DNA from: Gammaproteobacteria bacterium
GTDB taxonomy: Bacteria; Pseudomonadota; Gammaproteobacteria; SZUA-229
Assembly (NCBI GenBank): GCA_029882215.1
Contig: JAOULC010000034.1
Span: forward strand, 1-32,428
DNA: 32,428 nt
Direction of reading: 5' to 3'
Part shown: one piece after another, positions 1,749-27,996 of the stretch
Position numbering within the stretch: the first letter of the stretch is position 1
Layout: every line of letters starts with the position of its first letter
Notes under the pieces: generated by a model
What the model was told of the DNA's origin: nothing
The model's database searches: none
The model's input: the letters and a program-made list of their open reading frames with translations, nothing else
Position numbers and translations under genes: made by a program

Positions 1749-3311
1749 CTAAGCTGTTAATTCTTCATTATTCATCTTTTCATCATAAAAGACATAAGGT
1801 ATTTTGTTTCGCTTTGAGTGATACATGGCCATATCCGCGCAGTGCATCAGCACCTCACTCGAATCACCATCATAGGGAAACCGTGCAATACCAATACTGA
1901 TACCAACTTCAATCTCGTGCCCGTCTATATTAAACACCTCATTCATAAATGCCGTTATTTTCTCAGCCACCGAGACTGCAAACTCTTTTTCATTAACAGC
2001 ATATAAGATAATTGAAAATTCATCACCGCCTATTCTTGCTACGGTATCTGAGTTTCTTAGTGCCCGTTTCAGCCTTTTTGACACCGCCTTTAATAACTCA
2101 TCGCCAATATAATGACCCAGCTCATCATTAACCGATTTAAATTTATTAAGATCCATCATCATCAGCATAAATTCAGAACGGGCTTGATCGCGCCTGGCTA
2201 ACAGTGATATTTGTTTTAGCCTGTCAAATAATAGGGCGCGGTTGGGAATACCGGTGAGCATATCGGTAAAGGCTGCCACTTCCAGCTCAGCGTATAAATC
2301 ACTGAGTCCCCCCGTCAAGCCATTCAGCTCATTTGCCAGACTGACCAGTTCCTGACTGCCAGACACCGCCAGTTCATCCTGCAAAAAACGCCGGTCACTG
2401 CGAATGTTTTTCATATAGCCATTGATTTTTTCCAGCGGACAAATAATTGTTCTTCGATAGAACACCAGTGCGACAAACATCGCCACTAACGTACTGACAA
2501 CAATAAAACTAATCAGCCCGATTCTGCTTTTGAACAGATTTTGCTTGAGCAAAGACACATCGGTTGCAAAATAAAAATTAGCCAGCGGCTTTACATTACC
2601 CGCATGATTTTCATAGCGCACGAGCATAAATTTATGCATTTCGTCTTCAGCAGGCCAGCTTACAGAACGAAACAGCTCATCATGCTTCTCATTAGTAATG
2701 CGAACGGCTATCCCCAGCCCCTTTTCACCTTTAGCCAGATTAATCAGCGGATTAACGATAACCGACAAATAACCTTTTAAGCGCAAACCACCGACAGGAA
2801 CCAGCGTCACCAAACGCAGTTCGCCGTTGAAAACACAGGACTGATGAATCACCTTAAATCGTGCTGCTCCCTGTCGTTTTTTTGCATCAGCAACTGGCGA
2901 AGCACAGAGACCATTCTGTTCCACAACACTGCTATTTGTTGACTCAAATAATTTATTCAGTTTTTCGTCGTAAATAATAATCTTCTTAAGATCCAGCACC
3001 CCAAGTGTTACATATGCACGATGAAACTGCTCATCCAGATAATTTTCAACTTGTTGCTTTTCTGCTGCCTGAGTAACTCTTTTGAAATCACTGTCCGACT
3101 GAACTGACAATGCCAGTGATTCTGTTTCATCCTTCAGCTTATCCCACAAATGGTGTATTTCCAGCTCGATCACCTGAGTAAACATCTGCCGTCTGTTATC
3201 AAGTGTCTGCTGATAATAAACCTCACCGGTCATTAGTGTAAAACCCACACTGAGCAAGCCCATTAACAGAATGGTCATTAATAAATTGGTGCGCATCGAA
3301 TAGTATTTCAT
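1749..3311 (-). CDS. Membrane diguanylate cyclase with periplasmic sensor and GGDEF domain
   Basis: The 520-residue protein has a TM helix at about 9-27, a periplasmic region of about 230 residues, a second TM helix at about 262-285, a HAMP-like linker with ICPLEKI, and a GGDEF domain at about 346-510. The active-site GGDEF (428-432) is intact. RNSD (419-422), five residues before it, matches the RxxD product-inhibition site, so it should make c-di-GMP and be feedback-controlled. No EAL domain is present. The periplasmic part resembles a CACHE-type sensor in size only, and it carries two cysteines, C136 and C159. Its ATG follows the stop of the rhodanese gene with no gap (TAAATG), implying translational coupling. 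The activating signal is unknown. Confidence 0.93.
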   Translation of the reverse strand: MKYYSMRTNLLMTILLMGLLSVGFTLMTGEVYYQQTLDNRRQMFTQVIELEIHHLWDKLKDETESLALSVQSDSDFKRVTQAAEKQQVENYLDEQFHRAYVTLGVLDLKKIIIYDEKLNKLFESTNSSVVEQNGLCASPVADAKKRQGAARFKVIHQSCVFNGELRLVTLVPVGGLRLKGYLSVIVNPLINLAKGEKGLGIAVRITNEKHDELFRSVSWPAEDEMHKFMLVRYENHAGNVKPLANFYFATDVSLLKQNLFKSRIGLISFIVVSTLVAMFVALVFYRRTIICPLEKINGYMKNIRSDRRFLQDELAVSGSQELVSLANELNGLTGGLSDLYAELEVAAFTDMLTGIPNRALLFDRLKQISLLARRDQARSEFMLMMMDLNKFKSVNDELGHYIGDELLKAVSKRLKRALRNSDTVARIGGDEFSIILYAVNEKEFAVSVAEKITAFMNEVFNIDGHEIEVGISIGIARFPYDGDSSEVLMHCADMAMYHSKRNKIPYVFYDEKMNNEELTA

Positions 3312-3761
3312 TTATTTTTTTAAAAAGGGAAAACCTTTCTCCAGCCACTCTTCGAATCCCCCGCGAAACCAGTAGAGTTTTTTATAACCGCACTTCTTCG
3401 CCACCTTTATTGCAATTGCACTACGTCCGCATTTAACGCCATTACAGTAAAATAAAGCAGGATGCATTTTATCGGGTATTATTTTAGCTAGCGAGCTGCA
3501 ACTGGTTTCACTGTCCGGCAAGCTGACTGATGATTCAAGATAGCCCAGTTTCCTGTCACCACTGATGCGTGAATCCACTATTATTACCTCATCTGTCTGC
3601 TCGATTAAGTTAATAACACCGTCTGCGCTGACTATTTCTACATCTGCAATAAAATCCGGTGTCCGGACTTCTCCCGCGCATATACCGACTGAAACTGCCC
3701 AGAGAGAAAAAATAGGAAATACGATCGTTTTTTTATAAGCTGCGTCAAACAAAAAAAACAT
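3312..3761 (-). CDS. Periplasmic rhodanese-domain protein
   Basis: This is a 149-residue single rhodanese domain behind a Sec-type signal sequence (hydrophobic segment about 13-27, likely cleavage near ICA-GE). The catalytic loop CNGVKCGRS (106-114) has C106 as probable persulfide-carrying cysteine and a second cysteine, C111. It is the longer CxGxxCxxS loop rather than the classical six-residue CxxGxR form. A longer in-frame start exists at 3782, but AGGAGG lies five bases before the ATG at 3761, which decides the start. It is first in a two-gene unit with the diguanylate cyclase. Sulfurtransferase activity follows from the family. The physiological donor and acceptor cannot be told from sequence. 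Confidence 0.88.
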   Translation of the reverse strand: MFFLFDAAYKKTIVFPIFSLWAVSVGICAGEVRTPDFIADVEIVSADGVINLIEQTDEVIIVDSRISGDRKLGYLESSVSLPDSETSCSSLAKIIPDKMHPALFYCNGVKCGRSAIAIKVAKKCGYKKLYWFRGGFEEWLEKGFPFLKK

Positions 3762-3764
3762 TAA

Positions 3765-3772
3765 CACCTCCT
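3765..3772 (-). promoter_or_regulatory. Strong Shine-Dalgarno of the rhodanese gene
   Basis: On the minus strand this reads AGGAGGTG, a near-perfect anti-16S match. It is placed five bases (counting from AGGAGG) before ATG 3761. It lies inside the longer reading frame that starts at 3782, so it argues for the shorter protein with a normal signal peptide. Confidence 0.75.
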
Positions 3773-3899
3773 GTCTCACCATGCACTGTGATCACTGCCT
3801 ATACCCGTGCATACTGGTTATATTTATTTTATTCCAGACTCATTTGGATATTATTAATTACCCATCACCTCAAATTTCTAAAACCATAATAGCATGTTA

Positions 3900-16012: not shown

Positions 16013-19000
16013 TTAATTTCTTAATGTATCTTCATACCAGAATAATTTTCTCGCCTGATCATTATCTGGGTTCTGTACCGGTTCTGTACCGACGATAATC
16101 GCACTGCCGTCTTTGGTGTAAATAGGCGCAGGGTTAGGTGGTATACCACCACGAACCAATTTATTGCGGCGATCTTCTGCCGTCAAGTTATCTGTTGAAT
16201 CGACCAGCGTATCGAAATTAAATTTCGGTGTCGCATCGGTTACTGACATGAAATAAACATATCCGGTACCATCCGCTGGTTTACAGGCATCAGCAGAGTT
16301 GGTCTCAAGTGGCACATAGGTTGTTGCCACAACCAGACCTCCGATAATCAGCACTTCTGATAACCCCTTCTCACCAACATAACTGCCATCTGATTCTTTC
16401 AAATCTATATACCAGCCTGATGCGGCATTTAATAATGCCACTTCGGTTGCAGCGGCTGTTGCTGACCCCTGGCCGATGGTGTTACTACTGGCATCGTATA
16501 AGTCACTTTCAACAATGCCTGTCCCAGCGGAACCATAAGGATCTGTTGCGGGCGGTTTGTTAAACACATACGGGTCACGCAACATATAAATTTTATCATG
16601 ATTGTCCGTATTTAACGGATGCGCACGATAACCGGAACTCATTGCCAGTGACAGGTACGCCGCTTTACCTGGCTCTTCGATAATCGCCACATCGGGTGGA
16701 TAATAAAAGCGGTGATTATCTGCAGCTGTTACACCCGATAGGCTAGCCACGCGATTGATATCAATCAAAGCACTCAGGTCAGTATCTGCAGCACCTTTAC
16801 CTGGCTGAATATCTACCCGCCAGATTTGTCCGCCCATATCACCAAGATAGATTCTGTCCAGATAGCCATTGGCACTAACGTCAACCGCCTTAGGTCTTGC
16901 CGGTATACTGTACTGCATGTCTGCCACTTCAAGATCAGCCCCAGAGCCAGTAGGGCCAGCCCACCATAGCCTTGCGCCAGTCAGTGCATCTATAATGTAT
17001 ATAGCCCGGCCTACATCATCAACGGTTCTGACACTGTTAGCATCCTGATCCAGATCATAACCACCGGCAAATACGGCTACGTGTCTTTTTAATCCGCCAA
17101 TCTGCAGTTTCTTAAGCTGAATATTTGACCAGCTCTGACCTAACTCAACAAAATCACCGGTGCCGCCTTTAATAATCCACATAAGCACAGGGTTTGCGCG
17201 GTCAGTGACATCCATGGCGTAATAATTACGGCCACCACGACGTTCACCAAAGTAAATATAAACCTTATCACCGGTCTCAATCACACCATTAGAGTTATTG
17301 TCGATGACCAGTGAGCTCACAGAGCCATCCAGACCATAGGCTTTACCGCTGCCGGCGACATCACTGAATACGGTGTCCTGCAGTCCGAGCATTTCTTGCG
17401 GAATAAAGGAAAATATTTCTGTACCATCACGCGTATCAATGGCATGCAATACACCATCGTTAGTCGCTACATAAGCGGTTATATCGGGTTCATCATCCGG
17501 TCCGGCATACTGTACAAGTCCGGGCTCTGAATGCAACGGATCTCCCATAAACTGACGGGCATCTGTGGCATCATTATCAGAGTCATCATCATTAACATCC
17601 ACGCCACGCATCCACTGAATCAGGCTGATTCTGTATGCATCATCCTTGGCTGTAATGTTTAATAAATCTTTTGTTAGCAACGCATTTGTTTCAAGTACTT
17701 TGTTCGCATCAACATTCAGTGCGACATTGCTTGCTGTCGCCGCGCCGGTATATGTGTAAACCGTCCGTGTATTAATTTCACCAACAGCCCCGCCCAATGT
17801 TACCTCACCGCCATCTGGCAAGCCTACAGGATCTGTCCAGTAACTGTATGCCTGATCATCAAAGAAGCCTGTGATCTGATTAATGGCAGGCTGGTTCTTT
17901 TGATCCTCTATGACTGGTATGCCATCAATAAAAACCAGCTTGAAGCGTTTGAAGTTACCATCCCAGTGCGGGCCTATAGCAGGCTTGAACAATGTGAAAT
18001 ACAAGTCATTACGGTGAGTTGTTCGGTTAAATGCGTTAACCGATACCGCCGGCGATGAAAAGGTTGTATTAACCGATAAAATCTCAGCAATAATCTGATT
18101 AAATACTTCTGCCAACTCTATGGCATCACCCGCAGTATAGTAACTCGCACCACTGCGGTTAGCCGCGCTCTCCAGTAAAGGAAAATCATCCGCAAAACCT
18201 ACTGTATAGGTAGAGACCGTCTGCAAATCAGCCAGACCATCGTATACATCATGAAGATGCATATACTCTGCCAGCTCATCCAGACAATTATCAACACAGC
18301 CACCGGTCACCGCCACAAAGCCAGGTAACAAAGCGATCTTCGAGTCTGCATCGCCATCCCACGTTGCTTCACCATCAGACAAATAAATATTAAAGTTTTT
18401 CTGGCAGGCGTATTCAATCGGTGATACATAGTGCTTAACACTACCGACATTATAAGTAACACCGGTCGAGTTAGTTGGTGTCGACGTTAATCCATAGTCG
18501 GCCGGTTTTCCCGACCAGTACAAATAGTTTTCATATAAAACCTCAGACAACGGTGTACCACCGGATGCACTAAGTGCATTGATCAGCGGCAAAAAATTGC
18601 CACGAGCGGCTGTCACATCAGTAACCGGATATCGCACCGGGCCACCCTGTGAATTAGCGCTATCAAAACGCATAAAGCCGATATTAATATTGTTAGTACT
18701 GGTAACCACATCAGCGGTTACTTCTTTAACAACGGTTATACGGTCAGAAACCGCATCAGTATTTGTCTTTGTCCAGTTTAAATAATTACCCGAATATAAA
18801 ACATAACCCCGGCTCACAGCATTCCAATCCAGACTATTTGCCAGAGCGGCGGTATAAGGTCCCTCTGCTCGGTTGGCAATATACAGATTACCCGTAGTTG
18901 ACAAACCATGAACACCTGAATCGGCCTTACATTCAACATATCGATCAATCTGACTTTGTGCCAGATCATCCCACTCATCTCTGTTCGTACCGGTAACATC

Positions 19001-19420
19001 TTTCCACTGTGCAACACGATCCTGGTACCAGCCAGAGGCAATCGCCGGATCGGTAGTCTCAACAGGTGGCACAGTATTGTACAAAGGGTTCATCGCGGCA
19101 TTACATTTTAAGGCCGTTTTATTAAAATAATTTTTAGTTCCACAACTCGTAATCAAGGCACCTGTGGAATAATAAACTCTGGTATCACTAAAGCAGCCAC
19201 TATAAACAGTGTTGACATCATAATCAGCACGTACTGCCACAGCCGCATCCATACTGCCCGATGTATCAATAATGAACATCAGGTTTGGCTTAACCTCGGG
19301 AGCAGTACTCGCGTTGCCGACATAAATTTCAATGTCCTCTGCCAGCACAGTCGCTGCAATTGGCATGCTTAGCAGCATTGTAATTACTGATCGCGCCAAT
19401 TTTTGATTTAAAGTTTTCAT
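16013..19420 (-). CDS. pilY1: Type IV pilus tip adhesin/assembly factor PilY1
   Basis: A 1135-residue exported protein. The signal peptide ends near VLA-ED (residue 27/28). A von Willebrand A domain follows, with the metal-site motif DTSGSM at 52-57. The C-terminal half is the PilC/PilY1 beta-propeller, recognisable by YVATNDGVLHAIDTRDGTE and FGERRGGRNYYAMDV. A calcium-loop-like DNNSNGVIETGD precedes the latter. In the family PilY1 sits at the pilus tip, promotes assembly and adhesion, and its calcium site controls retraction. GAGGT lies just before the ATG. Length and domains are normal, with no frameshift. Confidence 0.95.
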   Translation of the reverse strand: MKTLNQKLARSVITMLLSMPIAATVLAEDIEIYVGNASTAPEVKPNLMFIIDTSGSMDAAVAVRADYDVNTVYSGCFSDTRVYYSTGALITSCGTKNYFNKTALKCNAAMNPLYNTVPPVETTDPAIASGWYQDRVAQWKDVTGTNRDEWDDLAQSQIDRYVECKADSGVHGLSTTGNLYIANRAEGPYTAALANSLDWNAVSRGYVLYSGNYLNWTKTNTDAVSDRITVVKEVTADVVTSTNNINIGFMRFDSANSQGGPVRYPVTDVTAARGNFLPLINALSASGGTPLSEVLYENYLYWSGKPADYGLTSTPTNSTGVTYNVGSVKHYVSPIEYACQKNFNIYLSDGEATWDGDADSKIALLPGFVAVTGGCVDNCLDELAEYMHLHDVYDGLADLQTVSTYTVGFADDFPLLESAANRSGASYYTAGDAIELAEVFNQIIAEILSVNTTFSSPAVSVNAFNRTTHRNDLYFTLFKPAIGPHWDGNFKRFKLVFIDGIPVIEDQKNQPAINQITGFFDDQAYSYWTDPVGLPDGGEVTLGGAVGEINTRTVYTYTGAATASNVALNVDANKVLETNALLTKDLLNITAKDDAYRISLIQWMRGVDVNDDDSDNDATDARQFMGDPLHSEPGLVQYAGPDDEPDITAYVATNDGVLHAIDTRDGTEIFSFIPQEMLGLQDTVFSDVAGSGKAYGLDGSVSSLVIDNNSNGVIETGDKVYIYFGERRGGRNYYAMDVTDRANPVLMWIIKGGTGDFVELGQSWSNIQLKKLQIGGLKRHVAVFAGGYDLDQDANSVRTVDDVGRAIYIIDALTGARLWWAGPTGSGADLEVADMQYSIPARPKAVDVSANGYLDRIYLGDMGGQIWRVDIQPGKGAADTDLSALIDINRVASLSGVTAADNHRFYYPPDVAIIEEPGKAAYLSLAMSSGYRAHPLNTDNHDKIYMLRDPYVFNKPPATDPYGSAGTGIVESDLYDASSNTIGQGSATAAATEVALLNAASGWYIDLKESDGSYVGEKGLSEVLIIGGLVVATTYVPLETNSADACKPADGTGYVYFMSVTDATPKFNFDTLVDSTDNLTAEDRRNKLVRGGIPPNPAPIYTKDGSAIIVGTEPVQNPDNDQARKLFWYEDTLRN

Positions 19421-19466
19421 CTGTACCTCGAATTCTGCTGCATTACTTCTGTTGTTTACCCGGCTA

Positions 19467-19796
19467 TTAGTAGATCTTTATTCTTGTCACTAAGCGCGTT
19501 TTTAAATCATAAAATGCAACACCCGGCTTTCCCGACTGTGTTGTAGCTCGCGTTAGCCCCACTTTTTTCCCGGCAATAAATAACTGGGTAGCAGGTGTGA
19601 TTTTAAGCACCTGTGTTTCACAACGCTGGCACACTTTGCCCGTGATGATACCGCTTAAGTCTTTGCTGATTTTTATACTCAAAGCCTCTGACTCAATGGC
19701 CCCTTCAATCATCTTCAGGTTTTCAGACGCTCTTACCGAATGAATACTTACTGTTAACGCAAGTGTTGTCAGCACAGATAAAATAATTTTTTTCAT
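19467..19796 (-). CDS. Small exported protein with CxxC motif in the minor-pilin operon
   Basis: I do not recognise this 109-residue protein. It has a clear Sec signal sequence (MKKIILSVLTTLALTVSIHS, cleavage likely near VRA-SE). The mature part of about 86 residues has C56QRC59 and is otherwise predicted beta-rich. A longer frame starts at 19835, but ATG 19796 gives the normal signal peptide and has GAG eight bases upstream. It lies between pilX and pilY1. Pseudomonas also has a small gene, pilY2, in this operon but on the other side of pilY1, so homology is not implied. The paired cysteines suggest a periplasmic disulfide or metal site. A role in PilY1 folding or secretion is only a guess. 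Confidence 0.75.
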   Translation of the reverse strand: MKKIILSVLTTLALTVSIHSVRASENLKMIEGAIESEALSIKISKDLSGIITGKVCQRCETQVLKITPATQLFIAGKKVGLTRATTQSGKPGVAFYDLKTRLVTRIKIY

Positions 19797-19819
19797 TAGA
19801 AACTCATCCTCGAACATTC

Positions 19820-20254
19820 TTATTCCGCAGTACAATCCTGAGCACTCTTAAGACCAATTGCCTGTACAACTCGGCTCGTGGCCTGACCACCGCAGCCGTT
19901 TGCAATACCCGTTGACTGGACACTGTATATATTTTCAAACGAAGCCTTTTCAAGACTGCCGCCGTATATTCGCTGACAGCCCAGATAATCCACTGACGTA
20001 CTTGCCGTGGTATTTGTACCGGCTATCGCGCAATCAAATGCCTGTGGCCACGTACCGCCTCTGTCAACCTGCAAAATAGATGTGTTGATACATGATAGCG
20101 TGGCCTGAAAAGCATCATTATGAGTCTGTGAGTTACAGGCAATTTTTAATTCAAGCGTGGTATTACTCATACTTGAAACACCCATTATTGTTAGCACCAG
20201 CAGCATTACCAAACCCAGAACCAGAGCAACACCTCTTTGTTGTTGAAACTTCAC
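19820..20254 (-). CDS. pilX: Type IV minor pilin PilX
   Basis: A 144-residue pilin-like protein with the PilX N-terminal helix: RGVALVLGLVMLLVLTIMG then VSSMSNTTLELKIACNSQ. The glycine before VALV is the expected prepilin peptidase site. Unlike the other pilins here, it has no Glu at +5, which is normal for PilX. The start is GTG 20254, with GGAGG six bases upstream; the open frame reaches back to 20341, but that part lies inside pilW. The start lies one base past the pilW stop (TGATGTG), so translation is coupled. Several cysteines lie in the C-terminal part. Confidence 0.88.
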   Translation of the reverse strand: MKFQQQRGVALVLGLVMLLVLTIMGVSSMSNTTLELKIACNSQTHNDAFQATLSCINTSILQVDRGGTWPQAFDCAIAGTNTTASTSVDYLGCQRIYGGSLEKASFENIYSVQSTGIANGCGGQATSRVVQAIGLKSAQDCTAE

Positions 20255-20255
20255 A

Positions 20256-21305
20256 TCATCCTCCGGTTGCCGTTTTTTTATGCATTCTGTTTTGTAACTT
20301 AACCACTGTTGACATGACCACGCGTCGGAAACCATCGTCAAATAATTGTGCCGGCCTGCCGGCCAGACTCAAGCTTTGAGTTTCAATAGCAGTGCCCGAA
20401 GCATCGGTCAATAAATCAGCATGTTGCGCCCTGATCAGCACCCAGAACTGAACAGACTTAACCTGACTAAGATCAATCTTTTCAACACCTTGCATCAATG
20501 CACTGTTTCCGTCCACATACATATCTACGGAGCCGTCATTATCATTATCCCAGCCCAGCTGTACCTGCAGGTCTTCAACCCCAGGGATCAGCATCGTGTT
20601 AGTAAGAGAGGGGCCGATCGCTAACTCCACTCGATGTAACGAAGGATAATTATCGCCGTCAAAGTCGGTAAATTTATTTACAAAATAAGTCCGCGCCTTG
20701 AGTCGAAAATTTTGCGGTACAAGATCAGCTATATCTCTGCTAAATTGTGGAGCAGTCGGGCCGATAAATAGCTCACCATGAAAGCTATTGGCATAAATAT
20801 AAACAACATTGGCTGCAAGATCCGCATCAGCAATCGGCGCCGGTGGCGCATACTTTACCACCAGCACATCTGTGTTTGGCACATACTGGTCACTAGGGAT
20901 ACAGGTATCGGCATAGGGGTTACTGTTTTCTGAAACAAAAAACGACTCATTCAGATTTCGGTACCAGTCTGCTGCGCAATCACCGGCTAGCGTCGGGTAA
21001 ACGTCTGTCAGCTCACGCGAGCGGCCAAAGGCCGGATCCACACCGACAGCACCGGCAATTTCTGAATCGTTATTAGTGCGCCCCCACAAGCCGGCATGGC
21101 GAAGATCATAAGAAAGTGTGCGCAAAGAAAAGCGCGCATCATCTATTAACTGAGTTTGCAGCTCGATTGCACCCTGTGCGACACGGCCATTTGAAAAAAC
21201 TTTAAAGACACCCGCTATTAAAAATGTGCCAATAGCCATCGAAATTAACAACTCGATTAGGGTAAAGCCCATTATTGTCGAGCGTGATTGCGAAAGATTT
21301 CTCAT
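20256..21305 (-). CDS. pilW: Type IV minor pilin PilW
   Basis: A 349-residue minor prepilin with a 13-residue leader ending in Gly, then FTLIELLISMAIGTFLIAG and Glu at +5. The long globular part includes the PilW-typical DARFSLRTLSYDLRHAGLWG soon after the helix. The length agrees with PilW, the largest minor pilin. It would form part of the priming complex at the pilus tip with PilV, PilX and PilY1. Its ATG is two bases after the pilV stop. Its stop overlaps the ribosome-binding region of pilX. Confidence 0.93.
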   Translation of the reverse strand: MRNLSQSRSTIMGFTLIELLISMAIGTFLIAGVFKVFSNGRVAQGAIELQTQLIDDARFSLRTLSYDLRHAGLWGRTNNDSEIAGAVGVDPAFGRSRELTDVYPTLAGDCAADWYRNLNESFFVSENSNPYADTCIPSDQYVPNTDVLVVKYAPPAPIADADLAANVVYIYANSFHGELFIGPTAPQFSRDIADLVPQNFRLKARTYFVNKFTDFDGDNYPSLHRVELAIGPSLTNTMLIPGVEDLQVQLGWDNDNDGSVDMYVDGNSALMQGVEKIDLSQVKSVQFWVLIRAQHADLLTDASGTAIETQSLSLAGRPAQLFDDGFRRVVMSTVVKLQNRMHKKTATGG

Positions 21306-26346: not shown

Positions 26347-27996
26347 ATGAATATCATCAATGGCCTGCACTTTAATAACCTGAAAGGCGACTTAAGCGGT
26401 GGTCTTGCAGCAGCCATTGGCGCACTACCACTGGCAATTGCATTTGGTGTTTTATCCGGCGCAGGCCCGATGGCTGGTATTTATGCCGCTATCTTCATTG
26501 GCTTTTTCGCTTCACTAACAGGTGGCACAGCCAGCCAGATTTCCGGCCCAACCGGCCCGATGACGGTATTAATGACCGCTATCTTTATGCAATACAGCAG
26601 CGCCGATCCGGTTCACGGTTTGGCGATTGGCTTTAGTGTGGTGATGCTCGGCGGACTTTTTTTAATCCTGTTCGGCGTATTCCGAGTCGGCCAGTACATT
26701 AATATGATTCCTCACCCGGTTATTTCTGGCTTAATGAGCGGACTGGGTGTCACCATTATTTTGCTTCAGATCGCGCCACTATTGGGCCACGCCAGCCACG
26801 ACACTACCTGGAATGCGTTATTACAGCTCCCCTCTGTATTCGCCCACCCTGCAACAGAAACCGCCTTGATCGGCGTACTTGCATTGGTTCTGCTATTTTT
26901 CCAGCCAAAAACCATCGGTAAATACATCCCTTCGCCATTCACCGCGCTGCTGGTTAGCAGCATCATATATCTACTTCTATTCCCGGATAGTATGATTAAA
27001 ACCATTGGCGAAGTCAGCATTAGTTTGCCGCAGCTACACTGGCCTGTTTATAGCCCCGAACTACTTACTGATATCGTAAAATCTGCATTGGCTCTGGCAG
27101 TACTGGCCACTATAGACACCCTAATCACCTCGTTAGTGGCTGACAACATCAGCCGCACCCAACATGACTCAGATCGCGAACTGATCGGTCAGGGAATTGC
27201 CAATTTTGCTTCCGGACTGTTTGGCGGCCTCGCCGGTGCCGGCTCCAGCATGCGCACCGTTATGAATGTGCGCCATGGCGGCCAGACTCCCTTGTCCGGT
27301 ATTTTTCACTCCGCCATTATCATCATTATTGTCTGGCTATTTGGCCAGTTTATAGCCAGCATCCCGCACACTGTACTTGCTGCTATTTTAATCAAAGTCG
27401 CCTTTGATCTGATCGACTGGGATTACATAAAAAGACTGCATAAGTCGCCAAAGCCAGCCATCGTGATTATGTTTCTGGTGTTATTACTTACTCTGTTTAT
27501 CGACATGATCATCGCCATTGGCAGCGGTATAACTCTGGCCAGCTTACTCTTTATGAAGCGCATGTCAGATCTGCAGCTAGAAAAAACATCAACCATCACT
27601 CACCCTGAGCAAGAACACCCGCTATCAGCCGAGGAAAGCCAGTACTTGCAGCAAGCTGATGGCCGCATATTATTATTCCATGTTAGTGGTCCAATGAGTT
27701 TTGGTGCTGCCAAGTCGATGGTCAAACGCGTTTCATCGGTTGATAACTACGAAGCACTCGTGCTGGATCTTAGTGACGTACCGATTATCGATTTCACCTC
27801 CTCGCTTGCCATTGAAGACATTATTCTGGATGCACAGGAGGCTGGTCATCATATCTTTATCAGCGGTGCCAGAAACATGGTTAAAGACGTACTGACCCGA
27901 CAAGGCATTATGGCTCATTTACTGCCTGGTCATGAGTATTCAAGCCGGCTAGATGCCTTAAAACACGCTCATCAACTACTCAATAACACGCATTAG
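26347..27996 (+). CDS. SulP-family inorganic anion transporter with STAS domain
   Basis: A 549-residue inner-membrane transporter. The N-terminal LSGGLAAAIGALPLAIAFG and the signature GGTASQISGPTGPMTVLM are typical of SulP, with about 12-14 membrane helices to residue 410. A cytoplasmic STAS domain covers about 440-545, with VLDLSDVPIIDFTSS in the conserved loop. SulP members carry sulfate, bicarbonate, or dicarboxylates. The next gene is phosphoribulokinase, which makes bicarbonate uptake for CO2 fixation a reasonable inference, although sulfate remains possible. A weak AT-rich ribosome-binding region (GGGGAAATC) lies ahead of ATG 26347. Confidence 0.92.
   Translation: MNIINGLHFNNLKGDLSGGLAAAIGALPLAIAFGVLSGAGPMAGIYAAIFIGFFASLTGGTASQISGPTGPMTVLMTAIFMQYSSADPVHGLAIGFSVVMLGGLFLILFGVFRVGQYINMIPHPVISGLMSGLGVTIILLQIAPLLGHASHDTTWNALLQLPSVFAHPATETALIGVLALVLLFFQPKTIGKYIPSPFTALLVSSIIYLLLFPDSMIKTIGEVSISLPQLHWPVYSPELLTDIVKSALALAVLATIDTLITSLVADNISRTQHDSDRELIGQGIANFASGLFGGLAGAGSSMRTVMNVRHGGQTPLSGIFHSAIIIIIVWLFGQFIASIPHTVLAAILIKVAFDLIDWDYIKRLHKSPKPAIVIMFLVLLLTLFIDMIIAIGSGITLASLLFMKRMSDLQLEKTSTITHPEQEHPLSAEESQYLQQADGRILLFHVSGPMSFGAAKSMVKRVSSVDNYEALVLDLSDVPIIDFTSSLAIEDIILDAQEAGHHIFISGARNMVKDVLTRQGIMAHLLPGHEYSSRLDALKHAHQLLNNTH

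Follow-up and report, generated by a model that had tools for sequence, protein, structure and literature searches.

A rhodanese and a membrane receptor encoded side by side probably form one environmental sensor in Gammaproteobacteria

The contig JAOULC010000034.1 of a gammaproteobacterial assembly (GCA_029882215.1), analysed here as a window of 32,428 nucleotides, carries a rhodanese gene (3312-3761) directly upstream of a gene for a diguanylate cyclase with a predicted periplasmic domain (1749-3311). This arrangement raises the question of whether the two proteins work together and, if so, what they report to the cell. To our knowledge, it is largely open how sulfur oxidisers detect reduced sulfur that lies beyond the cytoplasm and how they decide among swimming, attachment and respiration. 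Both genes lie on the minus strand, with the following features.

3312-3761, minus strand: rhodanese, single-domain, predicted to be exported, 149 residues (PF00581; Shine-Dalgarno AGGAGG; model pLDDT 91.5)
3420-3446, minus strand: active-site loop C106-N-G-V-K-C111-G-R-S (C-X4-C, C-X6-R), residues 106-114
3498-3500, minus strand: rhodanese C88, found only in pairs whose sensor has C136 and C159
3390-3392, minus strand: rhodanese C124, a Trp in 20 of the 28 pairs without the sensor cysteines
3309-3314, minus strand: TAA-ATG stop-start junction, the rhodanese TAA being 3312-3314
1749-3311, minus strand: sensor diguanylate cyclase, 520 residues (PF00990)
2538-3218, minus strand: periplasmic double-Cache-like, LuxQ-like sensor domain, approximately residues 32-258, from the model and hydropathy
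2904-2906, minus strand: sensor C136
2835-2837, minus strand: sensor C159, a Trp in most of the cysteine-free class
1806-2273, minus strand: GGDEF domain with an intact GGDEF (428) and an RxxD I-site (419)

The original prediction proposed that the two genes are translated together, and the abutment of the rhodanese stop and the cyclase start as TAAATG was confirmed. The rhodanese start at 3761 was favoured over the longer open reading frame starting at 3782 because AGGAGG (3767-3772) lies 5 nt upstream of this ATG. No Shine-Dalgarno sequence was visible in the local sequence just before the cyclase ATG. This, together with the abutting codons, makes termination-reinitiation coupling from the rhodanese to the cyclase plausible.

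The rhodanese matched PF00581 with an E value of 8e-9 (36.3 bits against a gathering score of 22.2) and reached no curated NCBIfam cut-off. Its hydropathy profile contained a single N-terminal hydrophobic stretch (11-32), in agreement with the predicted export; export and membrane topology of both proteins were assigned from hydropathy alone. The predicted model adopted the rhodanese fold, and the structural matches listed for it included at least 50 rhodanese chains with Z scores from 17.3 to 13.1, among them the single-domain rhodanese GlpE (1gmx, Z 15.0). The second sequence match in the PDB was 1qxn, titled 'sulfide dehydrogenase', which we take to be Sud of Wolinella, a periplasmic polysulfide sulfurtransferase. 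The canonical rhodanese loop has six residues, C-X4-[RK]. The loop here is instead C-X6-R, two residues longer than those of 6mxv and 1qxn in the alignments, and contains a second cysteine. Of 109 pairs, 108 kept the loop as C-N-G-x-x-C-x-[RK]-S, with the putative catalytic residue C106. Thus the protein differs from GlpE and Sud in its longer loop, its second cysteine and the tie of its gene to a receptor. In one pair (L095:1614-2144), both cysteines of the loop are gone from the rhodanese (HGNGVQSNR), yet the rhodanese gene overlaps that of the receptor; judged from its sequence, the protein is possibly a dead-enzyme co-receptor.

In the cyclase, two hydrophobic segments (8-31 and 259-293) bracket approximately 227 residues that include C136 and C159, close to the periplasmic domain of about 230 residues originally described. 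The protein matched PF00990 with an E value of 2.3e-43, and the intact GGDEF and the inhibition site, which reads RNSD, were found as predicted. The model of the sensor domain, built from 101 sequences, had a pLDDT of 92.9 and a pTM of 0.87. Model, structural matches and hydropathy together indicated a long N-terminal helix and two PAS-like lobes between two transmembrane helices. The first four structural matches were LuxQ periplasmic domains (Z 14.2 to 13.6), aligned at 3.3-3.6 Å across 189-198 residues; the best had 189 aligned residues at 3.5 Å. The LuxP-LuxQ complexes 2hj9 and 1zhh were also among the matches listed. KinD scored within one Z unit of LuxQ, followed by other double-Cache chains, such as DctB, and CHASE4 chains at 1-3 units below. 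With Foldseek alone, KinD ranked first and LuxQ 13th. Because of this near tie and the Foldseek ranking, the LuxQ match is evidence of the fold, not of the mechanism. The domain shares its double PAS-like architecture with CHASE4 c-di-GMP receptors, the CHASE4 chains having Z scores of about 11. However, no Pfam Cache or CHASE match was found for the cyclase of this locus at E values up to 1, which distinguishes it from the dCache and CHASE4 c-di-GMP receptors (e.g. PA2072/IsmP). Similarly, none of the 11 Pfam families listed for 44 paired receptors was of the Cache type.

The adjacent pair proved to be conserved across genomes. A first survey covered 116 relative genomes, 53 of which had a rhodanese match at an E value of 1e-8, and at the loci fetched, nearly every strong rhodanese directly preceded a protein resembling the N-terminal half of the cyclase. 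In named genomes, the best 80 of 342 rhodanese relatives were retained, and 71 of these had the sensor directly downstream. The other nine comprised three near a contig edge (L109, L133 and L166) and six solo copies beside unrelated genes. The neighbours of the solo copies, named by reading only, were sugar-nucleotide dehydrogenase/epimerase-like genes (L103, L106, L108 and L134) or an ABC-F-like ATPase (L139 and L152). Across loci L034-L177, with the same strand required, the sensor lay directly downstream of 126 of the 144 rhodaneses and was missing behind 18; 108 of the pairs were non-redundant. The median gap between the two genes was 16 nt, and 97 of the 108 pairs were separated by no more than 60 nt, these gaps and overlaps being approximate because the receptor starts are those of the longest frames. 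Adjacency this frequent far exceeds what chance would give. Unrelated rhodaneses, taken as a control at three loci only (L066-L068), had no receptor beside them. One contig filed under Afipia, an alphaproteobacterium, carries the pair otherwise seen in Gammaproteobacteria (L102) and is possibly misbinned.

A sample of 369 genomes drawn from the class was not seeded by the pair. The sensor profile matched 41 of these genomes (E 1e-6) and the rhodanese profile 117 (E 1e-15), including 31 with a strong rhodanese of at least 145 bits, a cut-off chosen after the scores had been seen, with one row only (a chemoreceptor-type locus in genome G089) falling at 138-155 bits. The sensor was present in all 31 strong-rhodanese genomes. 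Conversely, among the 32 genomes whose sensor scored 165 bits or more, 30 had a strong rhodanese, as did 31 of the 41 when every sensor match was counted; in one of the other two strong-sensor genomes (G385), a short rhodanese frame adjoins the sensor. At the level of loci, a rhodanese lay directly upstream at 33 of 60 sensor loci (23 of 50 newly fetched and 10 known earlier), or, by sensor strength, at 31 of 44 strong loci and 2 of 16 weaker ones. At one of the 27 loci without an adjacent rhodanese, a rhodanese ends 120 bases upstream. Thirteen of the 44 strong sensors had no adjacent rhodanese, and 11 of these were in genomes with a strong rhodanese elsewhere, the only exceptions being the two strong sensors of G243. 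In a phylum-wide sample of 388 genomes, five had a rhodanese match (E 1e-25), and the strong range was reached only in the genome of this locus. A plasmid search returned two weak Azospirillum matches, and the one inspected lay inside a NiFe-hydrogenase cluster. The genome G089 (L038, L060, L062, L075, L215, L226, L232 and L236) contained seven sensor and eight rhodanese matches (E 1e-15). Its outputs include the chemoreceptor and kinase types, yet it had no soxB or dsrA match.

The receptors behind the rhodanese varied in their outputs. Pfam assigned GGDEF to 28 of the 44 paired receptors, EAL to 9, MCP to 4, HisKA to 1 and HAMP to 19. Further paired receptors that were scanned included chemoreceptors (L038, L089 and L096) and kinases (L075, L122, L157 and L177); some output classes came from motif searches and are rougher than the Pfam assignments. 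Three HAMP-PAS receptors paired with a rhodanese ended in a region of about 190 residues (L042:3071-3637, L049:6747-7322 and L053:6640-7227) that had no Pfam match at an E value of 0.1 and two chance-level NCBIfam matches only. From its sequence, this region is a possible undescribed output domain. The variation in outputs implied that the rhodanese goes with the sensor and not with c-di-GMP. A link to c-di-GMP alone was thereby ruled out, since kinase, chemoreceptor and unassigned outputs occur in the same pair.

A second tier of rhodaneses, scoring 84-145 bits, was collected from 21 of the 27 class-sample rows of at least 84 bits (G285:C130, G170:C48, G230, G348, G336 and G410:C12 were left out) and two added from the first survey. 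Of these 23 places, 15 had the rhodanese directly before a different receptor, one had a receptor-like protein (L277) and seven had no receptor behind. The receptors were judged by reading to be of one kind, 14 of the 15 being aligned and six scanned, and all six scanned were chemoreceptors. Their sensor scored as double-Cache in Pfam for some members, and profile alignment related it to the sensor family of the pair (hhalign probability 93, E 3e-7, 216 columns). The C-X4-C motif was kept in all 15 rhodaneses before that receptor, and also in the second rhodanese of L261, which precedes a response-regulator-like gene, both read by eye. At L060, a kinase with a double-Cache domain follows a rhodanese of the same family. 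At L277 (2729-4813), a rhodanese that lacks the loop cysteines (YSDGPTG) immediately precedes a receptor-like protein whose sensor is of another type. Two solo rhodaneses (L275 and L276) come from genomes G117 and G205, each with a rhodanese-less sensor elsewhere (L225 and L228).

The two partners have also diverged together. Among the 105 of 109 pairs used for trees and distance tests (four short pairs were left out), the pairwise distances of rhodanese and sensor correlated with r of 0.64, against 0.13 for the best of 1000 shuffles. The correlation persisted within the cysteine class (0.51 versus 0.20 for the best shuffle) and within the other class (0.85 versus 0.41). For 13 genomes with several operons, 360 between-genome comparisons were made, and rhodanese and sensor agreed on the best match in 314 of them, while 300 trials of swapping partners within genomes gave a mean of 163 and a maximum of 242. 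The two-class cysteine split explains part of this agreement; of the 97 comparisons left undecided by the split, 89 agreed. The nearest neighbour was identical for both partners in only 54 of the 105 pairs.

The carriers of the pair were enriched in sulfur-oxidation genes. A dsrA match was found in 23 of the 31 carriers and in 95 of the 338 other genomes (Fisher 6e-7), and a soxB match in 24 of 31 and 129 of 338 (Fisher 3e-5), tests that ignore kinship. The counts are of matches at an E value of 1e-40, including five genomes for soxB and six for dsrA that fall below the curated cut-offs. Seven carriers had neither gene, three of them from one genus; the genome of this locus matched both. Among the best 80 of 342 relatives, named carriers included metagenome-assembled genomes of Thiobacillus, Sulfuricaulis and Thiohalobacter, and one cultured species, Thiohalophilus thiocyanatoxydans (L120), carries the pair. 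The proposed passage from sulfur to c-di-GMP is supported in its sulfur half by this enrichment, but not as a link specific to c-di-GMP, because kinases, chemoreceptors and an unassigned output occupy the same position. Elsewhere on the contig are type IV pilus genes (16013-21305, minus strand; PilY1-like 16013-19420, PilW-like 20256-21305) and a gene for a SulP-family sulfate permease with a STAS domain (26347-27996).

Since the rhodanese gene lies directly before the receptor gene across this group, most of whose members bear sulfur-oxidation genes, the rhodanese and the membrane receptor probably work together as one environmental sensor. LuxP-LuxQ, the AI-2 receptor of Vibrio, offers the closest likeness in our structural matches. 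LuxQ receives its signal by way of a distinct ligand-carrying protein of the periplasm, LuxP, whose gene lies directly before the receptor gene, and the same order was found here. We lean, a little beyond an even chance, towards a LuxPQ-like co-receptor in which the CX4C-loop rhodanese takes the place of LuxP and informs the receptor of sulfane sulfur or of thiol redox state; the contact, the ligand and the direction of effect are what we infer. In the periplasm, the exported rhodanese would dock on the double-Cache domain as a co-receptor, in the manner of LuxP on LuxQ. Its C106/C111 loop would take up sulfane sulfur (thiosulfate, polysulfide or persulfide) or follow the thiol redox state, and the loaded and empty forms would set the Cache domain differently. 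This state would be relayed by the second transmembrane helix and the linker that follows, and would change the output: c-di-GMP synthesis at this locus and, among its relatives, probably the breakdown of c-di-GMP, the activity of a kinase or chemotaxis. The likeness has its bounds. LuxP, which binds AI-2, belongs to the sugar-binding type of periplasmic proteins, whereas the partner here is a rhodanese and not a periplasmic-binding-protein homologue; the outputs vary and are mostly c-di-GMP enzymes, and for the pair we infer both the complex and its ligand.

The cysteines outside the loop were scored in 107 of the 109 pairs, two being unscorable. Sensor C136 and C159 were both present in 79 pairs and both absent in 28. 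Rhodanese C88 and C124 occurred together in exactly the same 79 pairs and in none of the 28, all of which keep both loop cysteines. On a tree built without those columns by a quick method, the four-cysteine state required one change. The correlation thus reflects a pair inherited in two lineages, not repeated co-change, and a reading as many independent co-changes was ruled out. In the models, C136 directly precedes a helix in the lobe that also contains C159, the latter on a strand, while C88 starts a helix and C124 follows a helix behind the active-site loop; our guess is that C88-C124 and C136-C159 form two structural disulfides. The absence of the sensor cysteines in 28 pairs that keep the loop showed that they are dispensable where the loop is kept.

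The original prediction had the rhodanese possibly passing persulfide to, or informing, the cyclase sensor, whose C136 and C159 it singled out. These data spoke against the two cysteines as acceptors: as a general mechanism, the hand-off was rejected in view of the 28 pairs, the single tree change and the persistence of both cysteines in sensors without an adjacent rhodanese. The broader alternative, in which the loop dithiol opens or persulfidates the C136-C159 pair of the sensor by hand-off or in a redox variant, can point to all 79 sensors with both cysteines having a rhodanese with C88 and C124, and to the redox precedents of HmsC-HmsD and PdeC, periplasmic cysteines being known to give redox control of c-di-GMP enzymes (PMC8846402). 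The same three observations weigh on it, as does the consensus of second-tier sensors, which has no cysteine, and we regard it as very improbable.

Enzyme and receptor might instead act without contact, the rhodanese making or removing a small periplasmic sulfur compound for which the double-Cache domain is itself the binding site. Direct binding of small ligands is usual for domains of this kind, and ligand-bound double-Cache chains are many among the structural neighbours of the sensor. The near-invariant loop and the existence of sensors without an adjacent rhodanese would also fit. However, the operon pairing and co-divergence exceed what a shared diffusible product would need, and the L095 rhodanese stays paired though its loop cysteines are gone; we consider this reading unlikely. 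It is less likely still that the genes are plain operon neighbours, a detoxifying periplasmic sulfurtransferase sharing its transcript with a receptor for some other signal. Some rhodaneses and some sensors of the family do stand alone, but the pair is conserved between deeply diverged lineages, its outputs vary, the receptors fall into two branches and the partners have diverged together.

Another known system close to the pair is HmsC-HmsD of Yersinia, in which a periplasmic protein bearing cysteines regulates a diguanylate cyclase that itself has a domain in the periplasm (PMC8846402). In the passages on this system, HmsC is not called a rhodanese and no family with varied outputs is described. 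The word rhodanese is absent from this review of c-di-GMP sensing. Literature searches, some only partly listed, returned no description of a rhodanese paired with a cyclase, chemoreceptor or kinase in titles and abstract openings. Tentatively, and with more doubt than we attach to the co-receptor itself, the pair may represent an undescribed receptor class, in which a rhodanese provides double-Cache receptors with a periplasmic subunit that senses sulfur or redox state, and one input module is wired, depending on the sulfur oxidiser, to c-di-GMP synthesis, c-di-GMP breakdown, kinases or chemotaxis.

The pair constitutes a defined two-gene module, with more than 100 loci, one cultured species and exact residues available for testing. 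Should the co-receptor reading hold, several receptor types would use an enzyme fold as their sensing subunit, and cells could judge sulfane sulfur outside the cytoplasm through one input module with several outputs.
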